From: Gemmatimonadota bacterium
Lineage (GTDB): Bacteria; Gemmatimonadota; Gemmatimonadetes; Longimicrobiales; Gaopeijiaceae
Reading direction: 5' to 3'
Length of the DNA stretch: 64,000 nucleotides
Assembly: GCA_026706635.1 (NCBI GenBank)
Contig: JAPOYJ010000020.1
Coordinates: forward strand, 1 to 64,000
The notes beneath the pieces were generated by a model. That model had not been told where the DNA came from and did not search any database. It saw only the letters and a list, made by a program, of their open reading frames with translations. The position numbers were made by a program, and so were the translations under genes. Below are positions 3,460 to 62,530 of this stretch, piece after piece. Positions within the stretch are counted from its first letter, which is position 1; every line of letters starts with the position of its first letter.

Positions 3460-3560
3460 GATCAAGACCGGCGGGAATCATTCAGCGGGAAATCGGGCTG
3501 TCGAACATGCAAACACATTCACCGCAACAAGATGCGAAACTACAACCACATGTCAGCCCG

Positions 3561-3609
3561 GCGCTTCGCCGCTCTCGGTGCTCGCGCGAGATTATCCACG
3601 GACTGCTAG
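3561..3609 (+). repeat. Dispersed CTAG-ended element, right end only
   Basis: This 49-bp stretch matches the right end of the element best seen at 8291-8543: the segment with CTCGGTGCTCGCGCGAG followed by ATTATCCACGGACTGCTAG. The left half is missing. A weak, AT-richer stretch just upstream (about 3506-3552) may be a decayed form of the 39-bp palindrome box. The copy lies between the recombinase and hicB. Confidence 0.75.
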
Positions 3610-3873: not shown

Positions 3874-5115
3874 ATTGACACGACGACCCTGACCCTCGCC
3901 CTCGCGGCCCTCACCCTCGCCGCCTGGCTGACCCTCGCCATCGCCGCCCTGTTCAGCCACTACAAGGTCCCCCGCCTGCACGACGTGGCCCCGGACCGCC
4001 CCGGCGACCCCCCGCTTCCCCGCCTCTCGATCATCGCCACCGCCCACAACGAGGAGCGGTCCATGGAACGCGCCCTTCGCTCGCTCCTTGCCCTGCGCTA
4101 CCCCGACTACGAGGTCGTCTTCGTCAACGACCGCTCCACCGACCAGACCGGCGAGATCGCCGAGCGGCTGAGCGCCGGAGACGCGCGCCTGAAAGTGCTC
4201 CACATCGACGAACTTCCACCGGGCTGGTTCGGCAAGACCCACGCGGCCCGGCGCGGCGCGGAGACGGCCACCGGAGAGGTCCTCCTCTTCACCGACGCCG
4301 ACGTGGTCTTCGCCCCCGATGCCGCAGTGTGCGGCGTGCGGCACCTGCTCAGGGAACGACTCGACCACCTTGCCGCGGGGCCCCGTGTCACGGTCACCGG
4401 CACCATGCTCCGGGCCTGCACGATCGCCACGCAGTTCTTCATCGGCGCGAGGCAGAGGCTCTGGAAGGTGGGCGACCCGCGCAGCTCCGCCTTCATCGGA
4501 ATCGGCGCCTATACGATGATGCGCGCCGACTCCTACCGGGCCGTCGGAGGATACGAATGCGTCGCGCTCCGGCCGGACGAGGATCTTCGCCTGGGCCAGA
4601 TCGTAAAGCGGTCCGGGATGCGGTCGGGCTTCCTGAAGGGGGTCGAGCTGCTGGAGATCCGCTGGTACCACTCCTTCGGCGACTTCGTTCGGGGTCTCGA
4701 CAAGAACTTCTTCGCCGCCCTCGACTACAGCCTCCTCATGGTGACGGGCTCCACCGTCACCCTTGCCTGGCTCGCCGCCGGGCCGCTCGTGATGGCGCCG
4801 CTCCTTCTGGCGACCGGCCAGCCCCTCGCCGGAGCGCTCTACGCGGCCTGCCCGGTCATCTGCTGGACGGCGGCCACGACCCTCACAAGGGACAACGCCT
4901 ACCCATGGTGGTACGTCCTCCCCTTCCCGCTGGCCGTGCTTGTGATCGTTTTCGCAATCTGGCGTTCCACGGCGCTCACCATCTTACGCGGGGTGGTCTG
5001 GGGAGGGCCGCCGGTGCCGCTCTCGGAATTGAGGGCGGCCCGGCCAGGGACGGGAATCGCTCGCCATGACCCCTCGGAGCACCCCATAATGACAACCACA
5101 GATGACATAATGTAA
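3874..5115 (+). CDS. Membrane-anchored family 2 glycosyltransferase
   Basis: The GT2 core begins LSIIATAHNEE (nucleotide binding) and continues with VFVNDRSTDQTGE and the metal-binding FTDADVVF; the C-terminus has two or three membrane helices. It transfers a sugar from an NDP-sugar to an unknown lipid or glycan acceptor at the membrane. The first conventional start is GTG 3985, but the frame upstream back to 3826 is open and encodes a clear hydrophobic helix (LTLALAALTLAAW onward) typical of this family. No ATG, GTG or TTG lies there; an ATT at 3874 follows GGAAGA at good spacing, hence the start chosen. The stop codon lies inside a palindrome box (5090-5128). Confidence 0.85.
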   Translation: MDTTTLTLALAALTLAAWLTLAIAALFSHYKVPRLHDVAPDRPGDPPLPRLSIIATAHNEERSMERALRSLLALRYPDYEVVFVNDRSTDQTGEIAERLSAGDARLKVLHIDELPPGWFGKTHAARRGAETATGEVLLFTDADVVFAPDAAVCGVRHLLRERLDHLAAGPRVTVTGTMLRACTIATQFFIGARQRLWKVGDPRSSAFIGIGAYTMMRADSYRAVGGYECVALRPDEDLRLGQIVKRSGMRSGFLKGVELLEIRWYHSFGDFVRGLDKNFFAALDYSLLMVTGSTVTLAWLAAGPLVMAPLLLATGQPLAGALYAACPVICWTAATTLTRDNAYPWWYVLPFPLAVLVIVFAIWRSTALTILRGVVWGGPPVPLSELRAARPGTGIARHDPSEHPIMTTTDDIM

Positions 5116-5128
5116 TCTGTAGTTGACA
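5090..5128. repeat. 39-bp paired-palindrome box of the dispersed element
   Basis: Two 18-bp near-palindromes, TGACAACCACAGATGACA (5090-5107) and TGTAATCTGTAGTTGACA (5111-5128), are separated by TAA. Size and spacing are identical to the boxes at 7370, 8372, 13864, 26146, 58109 and 62443. It lies between the convergent glycosyltransferase and parD genes and contains the glycosyltransferase stop codon. No inverted CTAG ends are recognised here. Confidence 0.7.
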
Positions 5129-5197: not shown

Positions 5198-5440
5198 TCA
5201 ACTCCCGGCTGCGCGCCGCCGAATGTCGTCGCGGAGCGAATCAAAGTACGCCTCGTCCGCCACGACCGCTGGCGGCGTCTGGAAGCCTTCGAGCAACGCG
5301 GCTCGCAGCACCCTGGAGTCCTGATCGTGGCGGATCAGCGCGCGGATGTACGCGCTGCAGCTTCCGTACCCGCCGTCTGCGACCTGTTCGTCCACAAAGG
5401 CCTTCAGGCCGACGGGGAGCGAGATGTTCATGGTGGTCAT
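5198..5440 (-). CDS. ParD-like ribbon-helix-helix antitoxin, orphan
   Basis: The 80-aa protein begins with a beta strand MNISLPVGLKAF, then two helices with GYGSCSAYIRALIR, the ribbon-helix-helix DNA-binding fold, followed by a C-terminal toxin-binding tail (residues about 45-80, with AYFDSLRDDIRRR). ParD antitoxins neutralise ParE gyrase poisons and repress their operon as dimers. A parE gene would normally follow; the DNA downstream (5130-5197) is too short and holds no frame. ATG 5440 is used; an ATG three codons later is equally possible. Confidence 0.8.
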   Translation of the reverse strand: MTTMNISLPVGLKAFVDEQVADGGYGSCSAYIRALIRHDQDSRVLRAALLEGFQTPPAVVADEAYFDSLRDDIRRRAAGS

Positions 5441-6608: not shown

Positions 6609-7316
6609 GTGACGGCTCCGATGCACCCACTCGATCCCTCCCGCTTCGAGCTGCTGACCTTCGACTGCTACGGCACACTGGTGGACTGGGAGTCGGGGAT
6701 CGTCGGCGCGGTGCGCTCCACCACCGCTGGCTGCGAGGCTTCGGACGCCGACATTCTCGAGGCCTTCTCGCACGCCGAGCACCTGGTGCAGAGCGAGCGC
6801 TACCGCAGCTACCGCGAGGTGCTGGCGCTGACGCGCGGGCGAATGGCCACGTCGCTCGGCTGCGCGGCCACCTCCGGGGAGAGGGCCGCCTTCGCCGGCT
6901 CGGTGGGCGACTGGCCCGTCTTTGCCGATACTCGCGAGGCGCTGGAGCGGCTGTCGGGACGGTACCGGCTGGGCATCGTCTCGAATGTGGACGACGATCT
7001 ATTCGCACGGACGCTGCCGTGCCTAGGCGTGGACTTCGACTGCGTCGTGACCGCCTCCCAGGTCGGGAGCTACAAGCCCGCCCCCGGCCACTTCGTCGAG
7101 ATGGAGCGCCGCTCGGGCTTGCCGCGCGAACGCACTCTGCACGTTGCGCAGAGCCTCTTCCACGACATCGCGCCCGCCTCCGAGCTGGGTTATGCCACCG
7201 TGCATGTGGACCGCCCGACCCGGGGGCGGGGGAGCGGCGCGACTCCGGCCGCCATTGCCCGCCCCACCGCCACAGTGCCCGACATGGCGAGCGTGGCCGA
7301 GCTGCTGGCTTGCTAG
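6609..7316 (+). CDS. HAD-superfamily hydrolase, haloacid-dehalogenase type II-like
   Basis: The 235-aa protein has motif I FDCYGTLVDW with nucleophile Asp19, the SNVDDDL motif II region and the SYKPAP lysine motif III, followed by HVAQSLFHDIAPA, the order found in type II 2-haloacid dehalogenases and related phosphatases. Start GTG 6609 is preceded by AGGTG; ATG 6621 is an alternative. The stop TAG (7314-7316) lies within the CTAG of a dispersed repeat whose body follows directly. The dehalogenase substrate is a family inference. Confidence 0.85.
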   Translation: MTAPMHPLDPSRFELLTFDCYGTLVDWESGIVGAVRSTTAGCEASDADILEAFSHAEHLVQSERYRSYREVLALTRGRMATSLGCAATSGERAAFAGSVGDWPVFADTREALERLSGRYRLGIVSNVDDDLFARTLPCLGVDFDCVVTASQVGSYKPAPGHFVEMERRSGLPRERTLHVAQSLFHDIAPASELGYATVHVDRPTRGRGSGATPAAIARPTATVPDMASVAELLAC

Positions 7317-7408
7317 CCCGTGGACAAACCTCCCACGGCAGGAACAGCGCGGCATCCCCACACCTACAAAGTAAATCGTAGTTTACAAAATGTAAACCAT
7401 AGTGTACT
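7313..7408. repeat. Dispersed CTAG-ended element, left half
   Basis: Starts CTAG-CCCGTGGAC, lacking the CAG found in other copies, followed by the conserved hairpin CCGTGG/CCACGG and then the palindrome box: AGTAAATCGTAGTTTACA (7370-7387), AAA, TGTAAACCATAGTGTACT (7391-7408). The right half is absent. It sits between convergent genes and holds the stop codon of the HAD gene at its left edge and of the porin gene at its right edge. Confidence 0.75.
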
Positions 7409-8195
7409 ATGGCGAGAGGCTCAGCAGGAAGACGAGGTACGCGCGGTTCACGCTCCTCGCCGGGTTTACCACGTACGAGACGCTGACCGGGGGGGCGAAG
7501 GACTCGGTGATGCCGAGCTCGGTGCTGGCGGTGACTCCGATGTTCACCACGGCGGCGCCCCCGGCAGACTTCTCGTCATCCGGATCGCCCGTGGTCTGGT
7601 AGAAGACGCTCTTGCCGTTCACATACCCTAGGTGCCATGCCAGCTCAACCCCCTCGGCATCCATCAGCGGTCCGCCGACCTCGGCGTAGAGAGTCTGGAC
7701 GGAGCAGTCCTCCTCCTCACCGCAATCGTCACGGTCGACATCGTCGAGCAGTAGGCCCGCGTACACCGAGAGAGGCGCGGACTCCGGTCCCGAGACTGAC
7801 ACCCACACCTCCTGCGTGTGCGCCTCACCGTCCCTGAAATCCGTCGCGCCGGGGCCCGGGAAGTAGTAGTCGGTCACGCCGAGCGACAGGCTCGCGCCCG
7901 CCTCGAACTCGTGGGTGAAGCTAGCCCAGAGGTCGTTCTCGTTGGCGGCGGCTCCGGAGGCGCTGATCGAGTACGACCCCCAGGCACCGAACTCGAGCAT
8001 GCCGAGCGATATCGTCAGCGCTGGCTGGAGCGCCATCGACTCGCCGAAGTCTAGGCCTCGCCATACGTATCGGCTCACGACATCGGCCCCGAGGGAGACC
8101 GACTGCGCGGCTGCGGGAGCAGAGGCGGCTGCCACAAGCGCGACTGCCGCCAATAGGAATGTGTGACGAATGGACGACCTGGTGCGGTGTATCAT
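7407..8195 (-). CDS. TorF-family putative outer-membrane porin
   Basis: The 262-aa protein has a cleavable signal peptide ending ASAPAAAQS and then the hallmark GADVVSRYVWRGLDFGES of the putative TorF-type porin family. Alternating amphipathic strands follow to a C-terminal hydrophobic end (FLLSLSP), as expected for a beta-barrel. It is likely an outer-membrane channel of unknown specificity. Start ATG 8195 is preceded by GAGAGG. The frame stays open upstream into the repeat at 8291-8543, but that extension is not needed. A complete palindrome box lies about 180 bp upstream of the start. Confidence 0.8.
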   Translation of the reverse strand: MIHRTRSSIRHTFLLAAVALVAAASAPAAAQSVSLGADVVSRYVWRGLDFGESMALQPALTISLGMLEFGAWGSYSISASGAAANENDLWASFTHEFEAGASLSLGVTDYYFPGPGATDFRDGEAHTQEVWVSVSGPESAPLSVYAGLLLDDVDRDDCGEEEDCSVQTLYAEVGGPLMDAEGVELAWHLGYVNGKSVFYQTTGDPDDEKSAGGAAVVNIGVTASTELGITESFAPPVSVSYVVNPARSVNRAYLVFLLSLSP

Positions 8196-8290
8196 CTCCC
8201 TTGCCTCTCGTTCATGGTTGCTGGCACCCCGTGGAGAACACCCCCCACGGTAGTCTACGTGTTCGGCTCGCGCACCCCCGTCCGCCCCAC

Positions 8291-8543
8291 CTAGCAGCCC
8301 GTGGACAAACCTCCCACGGCATTCGAGGCGCGCTGCATCCCCGCTGGACCGCTTCGCTCGCCTGTCCATACTGTAATGTATACATTACAATGTGTAATCC
8401 ATGACTTACAGTTCCTGTATCCCTGGCTTCGCTCTGTGTTGCTCCTTGGCCCGGTAGCGCTGCTACCAAGCCTTCGTCGCGCCTTGCCAGCGGGGCGCTT
8501 CGCGCCTCTCGGTGCTCGCGCGAGATTATCCACGGACTGCTAG
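8291..8543. repeat. Dispersed CTAG-ended element, most complete copy (253 bp)
   Basis: The ends are inverted: CTAGCAGCCCGTGGAC at the left and ATCCACGGACTGCTAG at the right. Inside, from left, are: a hairpin CCGTGG (8299-8304)/CCACGG (8314-8319); the box TGTAATGTATACATTACA (8372-8389, a perfect palindrome), ATG, TGTAATCCATGACTTACA (8393-8410); a hairpin GGTAGC-GCT-GCTACC (8453-8467); and the palindrome CTCGCGCGAG near the right end. It encodes no evident protein, though its minus strand is open outward from the box (MDRRAKRSSGDAA onward). CTAG at both ends may be a target duplication or part of the inverted repeat. It is MITE-like or REPIN-like; no transposase is visible. Confidence 0.85.
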
Positions 8544-11890: not shown

Positions 11891-12244
11891 CTAGCAGCCC
11901 GTGGAATAAACCCTGACGGCATTCGAGGCGCGCTGCATCCGCGCTGGTCCGCTGCGCTCTGCGTTGCTTCTTGCACGAATAGCGCTGCTATTCGCGCTGC
12001 GAAGCGCCTTGCCAGTGAGGCGGTCCGCGAACAGAACCCCGACGGCATTCGACCGGCGGAGCATCCCCGCTGGGCCGCTGCGCTCTGCGTTGCTCCTCGG
12101 ACCAATAGCGCTGCGGCTATTGGCCCTTCGTCGCGCCTTGCCAGCGGGGCGCTTCGCCGGTCTCGGTGCTCGTCCGGGCCTGTCCACGGACCGCCAGCGC
12201 AGCGCCCCTCTCGGTGCTCGCCTGAGTTTATCCACGGACTGCTA
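11891..12244. repeat. Dispersed CTAG-ended element, tandem double copy without palindrome box
   Basis: The left end is CTAGCAGCCCGTGGAATAAA and the right end is TTATCCACGGACTGCTA. Between them the central part occurs twice. Each copy has the central hairpin, but with different paired bases: CGAATAGC-GCT-GCTATTCG (11976-11994) and CCAATAGC-GCTGCG-GCTATTGG (12103-12124). Two right-end-like segments follow each other at about 12150-12244. The 39-bp box is missing in both. The right end supplies the amt stop codon. Confidence 0.8.
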
Positions 12245-13654: not shown

Positions 13655-13863
13655 GGCGGTTGTCACATTGGTGATGGAGAAGACTGGGGACGGCCCGGGT
13701 TCGGGACTGCGCCAGCCAGCCGATCGTCGGCCTGGAAAAGGCCAACCCCCGCTACCGCCGGTTACGGGGAGCCAAGGTACTGTGCGGACGGCGCTGCGCA
13801 AGTAGCGGGTTAGAGGCTACCGGCCCGAATAGCCGCGCAGAGCTATGCCACGAGCAAAAAAGT

Positions 13864-13902
13864 TGTAAACCATGGATTACATATTGTAAAGTATACATTA
13901 CA
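13864..13902. repeat. 39-bp paired-palindrome box
   Basis: TGTAAACCATGGATTACA (13864-13881), TAT, TGTAAAGTATACATTACA (13885-13902). It is in the opposite orientation to the copies at 8372 and 62443, since its reverse complement aligns with them. No CTAG ends or GC-rich arms are recognised around it, so here the box stands alone, between the start of amt and the end of the rqcH-like gene. Confidence 0.75.
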
Positions 13903-26129: not shown

Positions 26130-26282
26130 GCCCGCTTGTCCACAGTGTAATCTATGCTTTACATTTTGTAATCCATGATTTACAGCGTCAATGCGCGAGG
26201 CTTCGCTCTGCGTTGCTCCTTGGGCCGGTAGCGGGGCGCTTCGCCGCTCTCGGTGCTTGCGCGAGATTATCCACGGACTGCC
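26130..26282. repeat. Dispersed CTAG-ended element, right two thirds
   Basis: Starts within the left arm (CGCCCGCTTGTCCACAG). It contains the box TGTAATCTATGCTTTACA (26146-26163), TTT, TGTAATCCATGATTTACA (26167-26184), then the right arm with GGCTTCGCTCTGCGTTGCTC and the end ATTATCCACGGACTGCC. The second half of the central hairpin is deleted. It lies between the divergent lipoprotein (25972) and ybeY (26300), 174 and 116 bp from their starts. The 327-base gap 25973-26299 otherwise shows nothing. Confidence 0.8.
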
Positions 26283-34732: not shown

Positions 34733-34831
34733 TGGCAGCCCGTGGACAACCTCCCACGGCAGGAGCAGCGCTGCATCCCCGCTGGCGCCTCGCCGGTCTC
34801 GGTGCTCGCGAGATCATACGCGGACTGCCAG
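34733..34831. repeat. Dispersed element, internally deleted mini copy (99 bp)
   Basis: Both ends are present but the middle with the palindrome box and central hairpin is deleted. The left end is CTGGCAGCCCGTGGACAAC with its CCGTGG/CCACGG hairpin; the right end is GATCATACGCGGACTGCCAG. Here the ends read CTGG and CCAG rather than CTAG and CTAG, so they remain complementary to each other after the change. It lies in the 323-base gap between the divergent genes at 34650 and 34974, which otherwise shows nothing. Confidence 0.75.
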
Positions 34832-50182: not shown

Positions 50183-50189
50183 TCACTGC

Positions 50190-50253
50190 GGTGCCCTGCC
50201 AGCGGGACGCTTCGCCGCTCTCGGTGCACGCGGGAGGCTTTTCGCGGACTGCC
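50190..50253. repeat. Dispersed element, degenerate right half
   Basis: From GCCCTGCCAGCGGGACGCTTC through TTTTCGCGGACTGCC this matches the right arm of the element at 8291-8543 with several changes. The box and left half are missing. It lies directly after the MoeB-like gene, in the 349-base gap before groES that also contains the promoter and CIRCE. Confidence 0.6.
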
Positions 50254-58108: not shown

Positions 58109-58147
58109 TGTCAACTCCGGTTTACATCATGCAAACCACATTTGACA
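58109..58147. repeat. 39-bp paired-palindrome box
   Basis: TGTCAACTCCGGTTTACA (58109-58126), TCA, TGCAAACCACATTTGACA (58130-58147): degenerate but with the same 18-3-18 layout. It lies between the convergent genes ending at 57963 and 58152, five bases before the stop of the second. No CTAG ends are seen. The rest of the 188-base gap shows nothing. Confidence 0.6.
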
Positions 58148-58151
58148 ACAA

Positions 58152-59447
58152 TCACCGCTCCAACTCCCAGAGCTGCACCGACTCCACCCCCATCTCATCC
58201 GTCGCAAGGCCCAGCAGGTAGTCGGCGCCGATCTCGTAGACCGTCACTCCGTCGGGCGTTTCGATGAACCCCAGCGCCCGCCCCTCGGGGTCAAAGACCG
58301 TCCACAGCGGCGCGGGCCGGTCGATGCCGGGGAGCGTGGCCTCGCGCACCCAGAGGTGGTCCAGGGGATCGGTCAGCAGGTTGTTGAAGGCCGGGTATTG
58401 CTCCACGATGGGCATGCTGCCGTAGCCCCGGCGGGTCATTTTCAGGCTCGGTCCGGTCAATCCGGCCCGCTCCAGAGCTGCCTCGAGCGCCTCGTCGACC
58501 TCCTCGCGGGTCGGCGCGCGGTTCTCGTATTCGCGGCGCACGATGCGGGCGAGGGCCCCGGTCGAGGGGTCGTATGCGCGGACTTCGTAGTTGTCGTCGG
58601 TGGTGAGGATGACGAGCTCGCCCCACTCCGCCTCCCAGAGCGAGCGCCCAAAGGGAAGCAGGCCCATGAGGGCGATGCCGCCCTCGTACCCAATGTGGGA
58701 TTCCTGGCCGGGATGGGTGCCGAACCCGACCGGTGAGCCCCCGTAGCTGGGGCGCAGTTCGTACGTCTCCTGCGAGCGCCGGTATCCATCGCCGGTCACT
58801 TCCCCGGTCCGCCCCAGGATGCTCCCGTCGTGCAGCACCGCCCGGGGCTCGAGCGCCCCGGCTTCCGAATCGCGACGCTGCCGAGGGTAATGCCCCCGTA
58901 TGGCTTGAACGGCCCGGGGCTCGAGCGCCCCGGCTTCCGAATCGAGGGTAAAGGACCGTCCCAATGCGCCTTCAGCATCGAAGACCGAAATCACCCACGT
59001 CCGGTTGTTCCACGCGACGACCGAATCGCCCGGCCAGGGTTCGACACCCGCGAGGCTTGTAAACTCGCCCGGCCCTTCCCCTTCCCGTCCCCACGTGGCC
59101 AGATGCACACCTGCCGCGTCGAAGACGCGAAGCTCGCTGGAGCCGGTGTTCGCGATCACGATCCGTCCATCGGGCAGAATCGTCGCGTCGTTGGCCCGAT
59201 GTAGCAGGTACGCCTCCTCGCCGACAACCTCGCCGATCGATACCGCCGGCCCCGCACCGACCCGCCATGGCAGCCGCGAACCATCCGCAGGGCGTGCATT
59301 GTCGACGATGCGGATGCCGGCGCTGTCGCGGGTCGCCTGCGCCGACGCTTCGGCACGGCAAGCCACCTGGCAGACGGCGGCCACGAAGATCGCGATCGCC
59401 AGCGCGACTGCGGTCCCTGGAGCGATCATTCCCCTCTGCCTGGTCAT
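58152..59447 (-). CDS. 6-bladed beta-propeller exported protein
   Basis: The 431-aa protein has an N-terminal hydrophobic segment (AVALAIAIFVAAVCQVAC), then ATRDSAGIRIVDNARP, the start motif of this family in the window, and repeated propeller blades (VIANTGSSELRVFDAAG, WGREGEGPGEFTSLAGVE). C-terminal segments FDPEGRALGFIETPDG and LGLATDEMGVESVQLWEL close the fold. It probably binds a ligand or partner in the periplasm. A direct 33-base repeat (see 58840-58944) inserts in frame. A paralog lies at 61169 and a fragment at 5454. Confidence 0.8.
   Translation of the reverse strand: MTRQRGMIAPGTAVALAIAIFVAAVCQVACRAEASAQATRDSAGIRIVDNARPADGSRLPWRVGAGPAVSIGEVVGEEAYLLHRANDATILPDGRIVIANTGSSELRVFDAAGVHLATWGREGEGPGEFTSLAGVEPWPGDSVVAWNNRTWVISVFDAEGALGRSFTLDSEAGALEPRAVQAIRGHYPRQRRDSEAGALEPRAVLHDGSILGRTGEVTGDGYRRSQETYELRPSYGGSPVGFGTHPGQESHIGYEGGIALMGLLPFGRSLWEAEWGELVILTTDDNYEVRAYDPSTGALARIVRREYENRAPTREEVDEALEAALERAGLTGPSLKMTRRGYGSMPIVEQYPAFNNLLTDPLDHLWVREATLPGIDRPAPLWTVFDPEGRALGFIETPDGVTVYEIGADYLLGLATDEMGVESVQLWELER
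58840..58944 (-). repeat. In-frame direct duplication inside the propeller gene
   Basis: A 33-base unit (58840-58872) is repeated identically at 58912-58944, offset 72 bases, so the protein reads DSEAGALEPRAV twice, 24 residues apart. Because 72 is a multiple of three the frame is kept. It looks like a recent slippage or recombination event in a loop of the propeller. Confidence 0.85.
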
Positions 59448-61168: not shown

Positions 61169-62473
61169 CTACCTGCGGCTGGGACCAAGGCTGTAGAGTC
61201 TGACTTCCTCTTCGTCGTTGGCATCACGCAGGAGGGTGGCGAATCGGTCGGCATCCACTGCCAGTACACTCGCCGTGGCTGGAAGAGCCAGCCATCCCCG
61301 GAGCTGTCCGTCGGCACCGATGACGAGCCAGCGCCTTGTTTCCTCCCCCAGGCGGGCGGCCAACCCGATCCAGACCATCTCGTCGGGCCCGAGGAGCGCA
61401 GAGTGAAAGGCGGGGTGGGTATCGCGGTGGGGAGCATTCTCAACCGACTGCCGGTACCACTCCGGTGCGTCCGACCCCAGGCGGGCGAGCCGTTCCGCCC
61501 TCGACGCCTCGATCTCTTCGGCCGTGACCGCCCACCCGCCGCCGGTGCCGCGGATCCGTCGCGTGAGGCGACCGTCGGCCCCGTAGACGGATAGGCTCAA
61601 CACGTCCGTGTCGCCGATCAGCGCCCGGTCCCCGAATCCCTTGGCGACGATATCGCGTCCGAACGCGGGTTCGCTCCGAGTGGCCCCTCCTCCGGGAATG
61701 CTGCCGTAGCTCCATTCCTTGGCTGGAAGAAGCCCCAACGTCTCTGGCTCGGCCCCGAGATTCGTGAACGAGAGCAGAGGCGTCGTATCCCTCTTCATGC
61801 CTTCGGGAAGAAAGAACCGCTGCTCCCCCAGGATCGCGAGGACGTGACCGGCGGTGTCCGTCGCGAGAGGTCTCAGACTCACGATGGCGCTCTCCGGGTC
61901 GAGTCGCGTCGACGTGAGGAACCGCCCAGTCTCCGCGAACTCGCTGAGACGGGCCAGCCGCGAGTCGTAGACCAGGAACCCAGCTTCCGTGGCGAGGAGC
62001 GTTGTGATCTCGCTGAACTCCCCGGGGCCTTCGCCCTCTCCGCCCACGCGCGTTGCAAGGGAACCATCGGCGGAGAAGATCAGCACTTCGCTCTCGCCCG
62101 TGTTGGCCACTGCCAAGCGACCGTTGCCGAGGAGGAGGGCGTCCCCAACCCAGAACAACTCGATCCCGAGTCCCCGCGTGGAGAAAACAAGCTCCGCCGC
62201 CAACTCGGGTGCCGCCAGTTCCTCCACCCGGCCCAAGGAGATGTCTGTGATCCCGGCCGAGTCGGAGATCTGAACCACATTGCGGGCCTGAACGTCCCTC
62301 TCGGACTTGGCATCGTTGCACGCGGCAACGGCGCTGCAGAGGAATCCGACAGAGAGGAGGACTAGCAGCCCGTGGACAAACCTCCCACGGCATTCGAGCA
62401 GCGCTGCATCCCCGCTGGACCGCTTCGCCCGTCTCCCCACACTGTAATGTATGGTATACATTGTGTAATCCAT
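61169..62473 (-). CDS. 6-bladed beta-propeller lipoprotein with repeat-derived N-terminus
   Basis: Residues from about 50 onward form a propeller lipoprotein: lipobox region LCSAVAAC, ISDSAGITDISLG, blades VANTGESEVLIFSADG, and FLVYDSRLARLSEF, ending VRLYSLGPSRR. The first 36 residues (MDYTMYTIHY, GRRAKRSSGDAA, RGRFVHGL) are encoded by the dispersed element at 62363-62530, which joins exactly where the hydrophobic core starts. Start ATG 62473 follows GGGAA; GTG 62440 is possible. It seems an insertion removed the original start, and the element now supplies one with a positively charged N-terminus. Paralog of 58152. Confidence 0.75.
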   Translation of the reverse strand: MDYTMYTIHYSVGRRAKRSSGDAALLECRGRFVHGLLVLLSVGFLCSAVAACNDAKSERDVQARNVVQISDSAGITDISLGRVEELAAPELAAELVFSTRGLGIELFWVGDALLLGNGRLAVANTGESEVLIFSADGSLATRVGGEGEGPGEFSEITTLLATEAGFLVYDSRLARLSEFAETGRFLTSTRLDPESAIVSLRPLATDTAGHVLAILGEQRFFLPEGMKRDTTPLLSFTNLGAEPETLGLLPAKEWSYGSIPGGGATRSEPAFGRDIVAKGFGDRALIGDTDVLSLSVYGADGRLTRRIRGTGGGWAVTAEEIEASRAERLARLGSDAPEWYRQSVENAPHRDTHPAFHSALLGPDEMVWIGLAARLGEETRRWLVIGADGQLRGWLALPATASVLAVDADRFATLLRDANDEEEVRLYSLGPSRR

Positions 62474-62530
62474 GGTTTACAATTTCCCATGCCCGTGGCT
62501 TCGCTCTGCGTTGCTCCTCGGGCCGTCAAT
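62363..62530. repeat. Dispersed CTAG-ended element, left two thirds
   Basis: Left end CTAGCAGCCCGTGGAC with the CCGTGG/CCACGG hairpin, then the box TGTAATGTATGGTATACA (62443-62460), TTG, TGTAATCCATGGTTTACA (62464-62481) and part of the right arm (GGCTTCGCTCTGCGTTGCTC). The central hairpin and right end are missing. It overlaps the 5' end of the propeller lipoprotein gene. The following stretch to about 62670 shows nothing clear. Confidence 0.8.

Follow-up and report, generated by a model that had tools for sequence, protein, structure and literature searches.

A paired 39-bp palindromic box of one Gemmatimonadota genus, clustered at stop codons and carried in part by a CTAG-ended MITE

We find that the paired palindromes of the window (the whole 64,000-nucleotide stretch of a Gemmatimonadota contig analysed here) belong to a genome-wide set of 39-bp units, each made of two 18-bp palindromes exactly 3 bp apart. 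Outside MITEs, the units cluster at stop codons. The unit may be the site of one genus-specific, sequence-specific protein, of which two dimers or one tetramer would bind cooperatively and, as a roadblock or insulator, mark transcription-unit ends or block them, with a MITE spreading the copies; to this composite reading we give somewhat less than an even chance. That there is one binder, in what oligomeric state it binds and that it acts as a roadblock or boundary are what we infer, the function from position and selection; of the readings considered, a use at gene ends has the best support, and we put it forward with moderate confidence.

Layout and distribution of the paired box

The seven loci at which an earlier note on this DNA had described paired palindromes (5090, 7370, 8372, 13864, 26146, 58109 and 62443) are all present where it placed them, and the constant 18-3-18 layout that it claimed holds throughout, with a 3-bp gap between the 18-bp boxes at 7/7 loci (Table 1). 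Of the 14 window boxes, 13 fit the pattern TGTMAW-N6-WTKACA perfectly or with a single mismatch, where shuffled sequence would give 0.12; the weakest pair is that at 7370 (AGT..ACA / TGT..ACT). An Rfam search of the window gave no match. The source genome (G000; 2.81 Mb in 86 contigs) contains 109 perfect pairs and 277 allowing up to 3 mismatches, against 0 for a control pattern read backwards over the whole genome. In 769 kb of this genome, 128/132 perfect boxes have a partner (at most 2 mismatches) at exactly 21 bp from start to start, and eight other offsets tested over the same 769 kb yielded one chance partner only. Among the four exceptions, two are pairs of which one box carries an indel, and a third belongs to a truncated MITE copy. 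The genome-wide pair search proposed in the earlier note thus returned fixed 21-bp pairing, and not the single sites or random spacing that it had named as counting against its operator idea. Given this strict register, the unit is therefore the pair.

Each pair consists of four half-sites, (A)TGTMAW, that alternate in orientation, beginning with a forward one, at start-to-start distances of 13, 8 and 13 bp; from box to box this makes exactly two helical turns, which puts both boxes on the same face. The pair matrix is symmetric: G at positions 2 and 23 and C at positions 17 and 38 are nearly invariant, and the half-sites read TGTMA. In genomes other than the source genome, the 3-bp spacer is mostly T.A.

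The closest known layout, which the earlier note did not name, is the ARG box pair, in which two imperfect 18-bp palindromes, 3 bp apart and thus 18-3-18, span two helical turns and bind a cooperative oligomer (PMC6640053). The paired box shares with this site of ArgR (AhrC) the two 18-bp palindromes 3 bp apart, but it does not belong to the class: it is hundreds strong, lies at gene ends and at none of the argR loci, and occurs in a source genome without a detected ArgR. Moreover, ARG box half-sites are TGAAT-type and spaced about 9/12/9, whereas those of the paired box are TGTMAW at 13/8/13.

The paired box is restricted to one Gemmatimonadota genus, which we take from the isolate names to be sponge-associated. 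In a scan of 59 relatives at up to 2 mismatches, 22/23 genomes of the source genus (G000 included) carry 26 to 254 pairs, and genera other than the source genus 0 to 2; in round figures, the per-genome number in the genus is about 25 to 280. One genus member, G009, has 0 pairs and not even single perfect boxes. Similarly, in 395 genomes of the phylum scanned at up to 1 mismatch, the counts run from 13 to 197 pairs in 22 genus members, and outside the genus 6/372 genomes match, with one pair each. Matches in named genomes include many Gemmatimonadota / Longimicrobiales MAGs, and scattered pattern matches in other phyla may be due to chance in AT-rich genomes. We note that one pair in another genus (G252:C63:23135-23173) is identical to a pair of G002 at C124:50680, by transfer or contamination. 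A literature search for reports of MITEs or motifs in the phylum Gemmatimonadota returned nothing relevant. The site set is large and sharply bounded, since almost all relatives and one genus member are without sites; a search for the binder through gene-content comparison is therefore feasible, and function is testable at orthologous junctions with and without a site.

Table 1. Paired boxes, MITE segments and a candidate gene in the window
Feature	Coordinates	Strand	Remark
Paired box, 5090-5107 + 5111-5128	5090..5128	.	Outside any MITE
ParD-type RHH protein (PF03693)	5198..5440	-	Candidate binder of the earlier note
MITE left-arm remnant	7314..7359	+	E=1.2e-4
Degenerate paired box (3 mismatches)	7370..7408	.	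Between convergent gene ends
Complete 253-bp MITE, CTAG ends (CTAGCAGCCCGTGGA ... TCCACGGACTGCTAG)	8291..8543	+	Paired box inside
Paired box, 8372-8389 + 8393-8410	8372..8410	.	Within MITE 8291..8543
Decayed MITE right arm	13805..13853	-	Adjoins 13864 box; E=0.003
Paired box, perfect pattern match	13864..13902	.	In MITE copy with decayed flanks
Paired box, perfect pattern match	26146..26184	.	
MITE right arm	26195..26281	+	Beside 26146 box; left arm mostly replaced; E=7e-13
Paired box	58109..58147	.	Outside MITE; 5 bp from 3' end (58152) of ORF 58152-59447(-)
MITE left arm with CTAG end	62362..62442	+	E=1.7e-16
Paired box	62443..62481	.	Within MITE
Partial MITE right arm	62487..62530	+	E=2e-4

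The CTAG-ended MITE and the conservation of half-sites

The "CTAG ends" of the earlier note are the ends of a MITE, of which the window holds one complete copy. This element carries terminal inverted repeats (CTAGCAGYCCGTGGA), has CTAG at both ends, contains no gene and occurs as many dispersed copies; an unsystematic look turned up no parent transposase. In 1.9 Mb of the source genome, its left arm has 126 matches, 60 with a box pair and 66 without; 59/60 of these box pairs have 0 to 4 mismatches, and the boxless form is continuous across the position of the box module. Related box-bearing copies are present in other species of the genus. In the window, boxless or partial copies also occur at 3549-3609, 11891-12244 (a tandem cluster), 34733-34830 and 50188-50252. 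The absence of CTAG ends that had been claimed for the boxes at 5090, 13864 and 58109 holds for the first and the last, which lie outside the MITE, but not for the box at 13864, which keeps a decayed arm. The accompanying suggestion that the box is a functional core separate from these ends agrees with what we observe, namely that the half-sites are kept while their surroundings decay.

For the constraint test, MITE copies were picked by their left 60 bp alone, so that the box and its near flanks were unselected. Across the 59 distinct copies so obtained, conservation is 95.6% at the specified half-site positions (TGTMA/TKACA positions individually 95-100%, with one position at 88%), against 74% for the N positions of the box, 71% for the left flank and 64% for the right flank. 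A neutral box would decay like its interior; the half-sites are thus under purifying selection, and the paired box, judged from its conservation, is functional. At the junction between an S9-peptidase gene and blaI, an orthologous pair is retained in six species (G001, G002, G013, G015, G016 and G019) with differing interiors, a remnant is found in G004, and G006, G009 and G010 have no pair at this junction.

Mirror positions (4/15, 6/13, 8/11 and 9/10) co-vary no more than expected by chance among 141 distinct boxes of three other genomes. In the boxes of the source genome, pairs 4/15 (z = 3.2) and 6/13 (z = -4.5) deviate, both skewed by repeated MITE copies, and are near chance in the MITE-unlike subset. 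The half-sites therefore vary independently and are read one by one as double-stranded DNA, not as a hairpin, which makes the paired box most probably a double-stranded protein-binding site. An RNA hairpin or intrinsic terminator was rejected on the same lack of stem covariation and because a hairpin with a T tract is not enriched: in the source genome, hairpin-plus-T terminators occur at 6% of gene ends (gaps of at least 60 bp) and at 4% of random positions.

These data also bear on the notion that the boxes are selfish REP/MITE-type palindromes, kept solely by their own mobility or as ssDNA/RNA hairpins, which we consider quite improbable. Many copies do sit inside the CTAG-ended MITE, and like REP/BIME and Correia-type elements the paired boxes are extragenic, palindromic, numerous and partly carried by small mobile elements. 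However, they differ from these elements in lacking stem covariation and a conserved hairpin, the constraint falling on four short half-sites, which are maintained while the surrounding MITE decays; about half of the MITE copies are boxless, and many sites have no repeat flanks at all.

Position at gene ends and a possible role there

Nearly all sites lie outside genes. Genes were called with a simple codon-usage finder made for the purpose, so that single distances may be off, although the bias described here is independent of any one distance. Of the 133 non-MITE sites, 73 fall in the range of -25 to +40 bp around a stop codon; placing sites at random in these gaps puts 47.4 +/- 4.0 there, and never more than 62 in 5000 trials. 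Near start codons there are 29 sites, against 38.6 +/- 4.3. In tandem gaps, 47/58 sites are closer to the upstream stop (p = 2e-6). The 3' bias could in part be promoter avoidance.

The recurrent offsets of -4, -9 and -25 correspond to stop codons furnished by the box itself, which happens at roughly one in four of the sites close to a gene end, and TAA accounts for 17/55 stops adjoining boxes, against 80/1407 overall. The window offers an example in the glycosyltransferase ORF 3985-5115(+), whose TAA stop (5113-5115) is furnished by the second TGTAA of the 5090 pair. The 7370 box is flanked by a HAD ORF ending at 7316, by the ORF 7407-8369 on the minus strand and by an adjoining MITE left-arm remnant. 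The majority of gene ends have no box, and divergent gene gaps hold 28/133 non-MITE sites, which a terminator role leaves unexplained. MITE copies are without a gene-end bias like that of the non-MITE sites, and box-bearing and boxless MITEs are alike in their position relative to genes.

Two side observations concern the sites and their neighbourhood. A paired-box match in G001 (L094) lies within smc, in the part coding for the coiled coil, where a heptad is encoded by a 21-bp direct repeat; this match is possibly due to chance. In addition, a second palindrome of fixed spacing, TGACAGAT-N10-ATCTGTCA (26 bp), has ~17 copies in 769 kb of the source genome, six of which adjoin a paired box, four with a 2-bp gap (e.g., C5:83498, C14:10185 and C25:8953).

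Position and selection together point to a possible function at transcription-unit ends. The 21-bp register, the four half-sites and their independent variation suggest, in turn, cooperative binding: two dimers or one tetramer of a single putative protein would occupy the four half-sites on one face of the helix. The bound complex would then act on transcription-unit ends and, the site being symmetric, would affect polymerases from both sides. Individual copies would be retained by selection one by one, the MITE having picked up the site and then spread new copies. Bacterial RNA polymerase can indeed be blocked by DNA-bound proteins (PMC10310618). The earlier note had envisaged two dimers on adjacent sites of an operator; half-site conservation and the lack of compensatory change support the cooperative dimers or tetramer, but an ordinary operator is unsupported because it is stop codons, not promoters, at which the non-MITE sites are found.

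A bolder version of the gene-end reading, which we regard as unlikely though far from negligible, is that the genus, having few intrinsic terminators in its genome, has evolved a genome-wide set of symmetric gene-end sites that depend on a protein and serve as roadblock terminators or insulators, with the MITE distributing ready-made gene ends. If true, a gene-end role would be a bacterial counterpart of yeast roadblock termination, and the MITE a mobile element that spreads functional gene ends.

According to the main rival, a chromosome-organising or nucleoid protein, like MatP (with matS), Noc or SlmA, uses the boxes as dispersed anchors, and gene ends are merely the least harmful spots for them. 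This we consider rather unlikely. As with the MatP, Noc and SlmA site sets, the paired boxes are scattered over the chromosome as one genome-wide set for one putative protein; they occur across contigs, are indifferent to the function of neighbouring genes and nearly all extragenic, and the occupied divergent gaps and the like distribution of box-bearing and boxless MITEs also fit. Unlike those sets, however, the boxes are strictly paired, cluster strongly at stop codons, some of them furnishing the codon, and vary about ten-fold in number among close relatives of one genus (26 to 254), one member having none.

Candidate binding proteins

A putative binder was sought by pattern and by eye among the proteins predicted from 1.9 Mb of the 2.81-Mb source genome, with no clear candidate emerging. 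In the comparisons that follow, gene/site associations across genomes ignore relatedness, and absence of a gene from an incomplete MAG is weak evidence.

A classical operator, with the boxes defining the regulon of a factor from one of the known families (ArgR-, TyrR-, BlaI-, LysR- or Xre-like), appears improbable, since the sites lie at the 3' ends of genes and in convergent gaps. Its appeal lies in the ARG box layout, in the resemblance to the TyrR box and in some boxes upstream of blaI, each of which we followed to the corresponding protein. For ArgR, the layout fits, but PF01316 was not found in the source genome (96% complete), is present in site-free genera, and a paired box (up to 3 mismatches) occurs at 0/30 argR loci. 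We note that the source genome is without a detected ArgR although nearly all its relatives have one. The TyrR box, TGTAAA-N6-TTTACA, is often paired, and the likeness in shape pointed out in the earlier note is real; the protein does not follow, since the TyrR-type HTH (PF18024) is not genus-specific, being found in all 15 genera sampled and about equally in those without sites, and the paired boxes sit mainly at stop codons, with no connection to aromatic genes noticed. The boxes near blaI belong to the end of the preceding peptidase gene and not to the blaI promoter, and blaI is also present in the site-free G009. An Xre protein (C36) was set aside, being present in only about half of the site-bearing genomes.

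Sites of a toxin-antitoxin RHH antitoxin (RelB- or ParD-like), with the scattered copies acting as decoys, are a very improbable alternative. The RelB operator relO consists of four contiguous [A/T]TGT[A/C]A hexads, with no spacing tolerated, on which two RelB dimers bind one face (PMC2812701). This hexad core, four times repeated, is common to the paired box, and RelB (PF04221) is found in 21/22 genomes with sites, is missing from G009 and occurs in 3/36 others (p ~8e-12, ignoring relatedness). Hexad and distribution therefore fit, but spacing and loci do not: relO (TTGTAATGACATTTGTAATTACAA) has contiguous 12-bp half-sites, whereas the paired box is spaced 13/8/13 with 8 bp inside each palindrome, and the boxes are not upstream of relB genes, which have other upstream sequences and a pair within 300 bp upstream at 1/30 loci. 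In G013, moreover, there are 90 sites and no RelB was detected.

The earlier note had mentioned RHH proteins, three of them encoded nearby, as binders of such sites and had proposed a comparison with the sites of the ParD-like protein encoded at 5198. The gene is present in 17/22 site-bearing genomes and not in G009. This protein is not favoured here: the 5090 box lies on the 3' side of the gene and not upstream, its best-scoring relative (G007) has no nearby box, and the gene is undetected in 5/22 site-bearing genomes. The ParD-like protein is genus-restricted among 40 genomes searched, bar two marginal matches. RelB-type antitoxins, for their part, are common in the source genus and nearly absent from related genera, and the source genome and its relatives have two or more distinct relBE types whose upstream palindromes differ.
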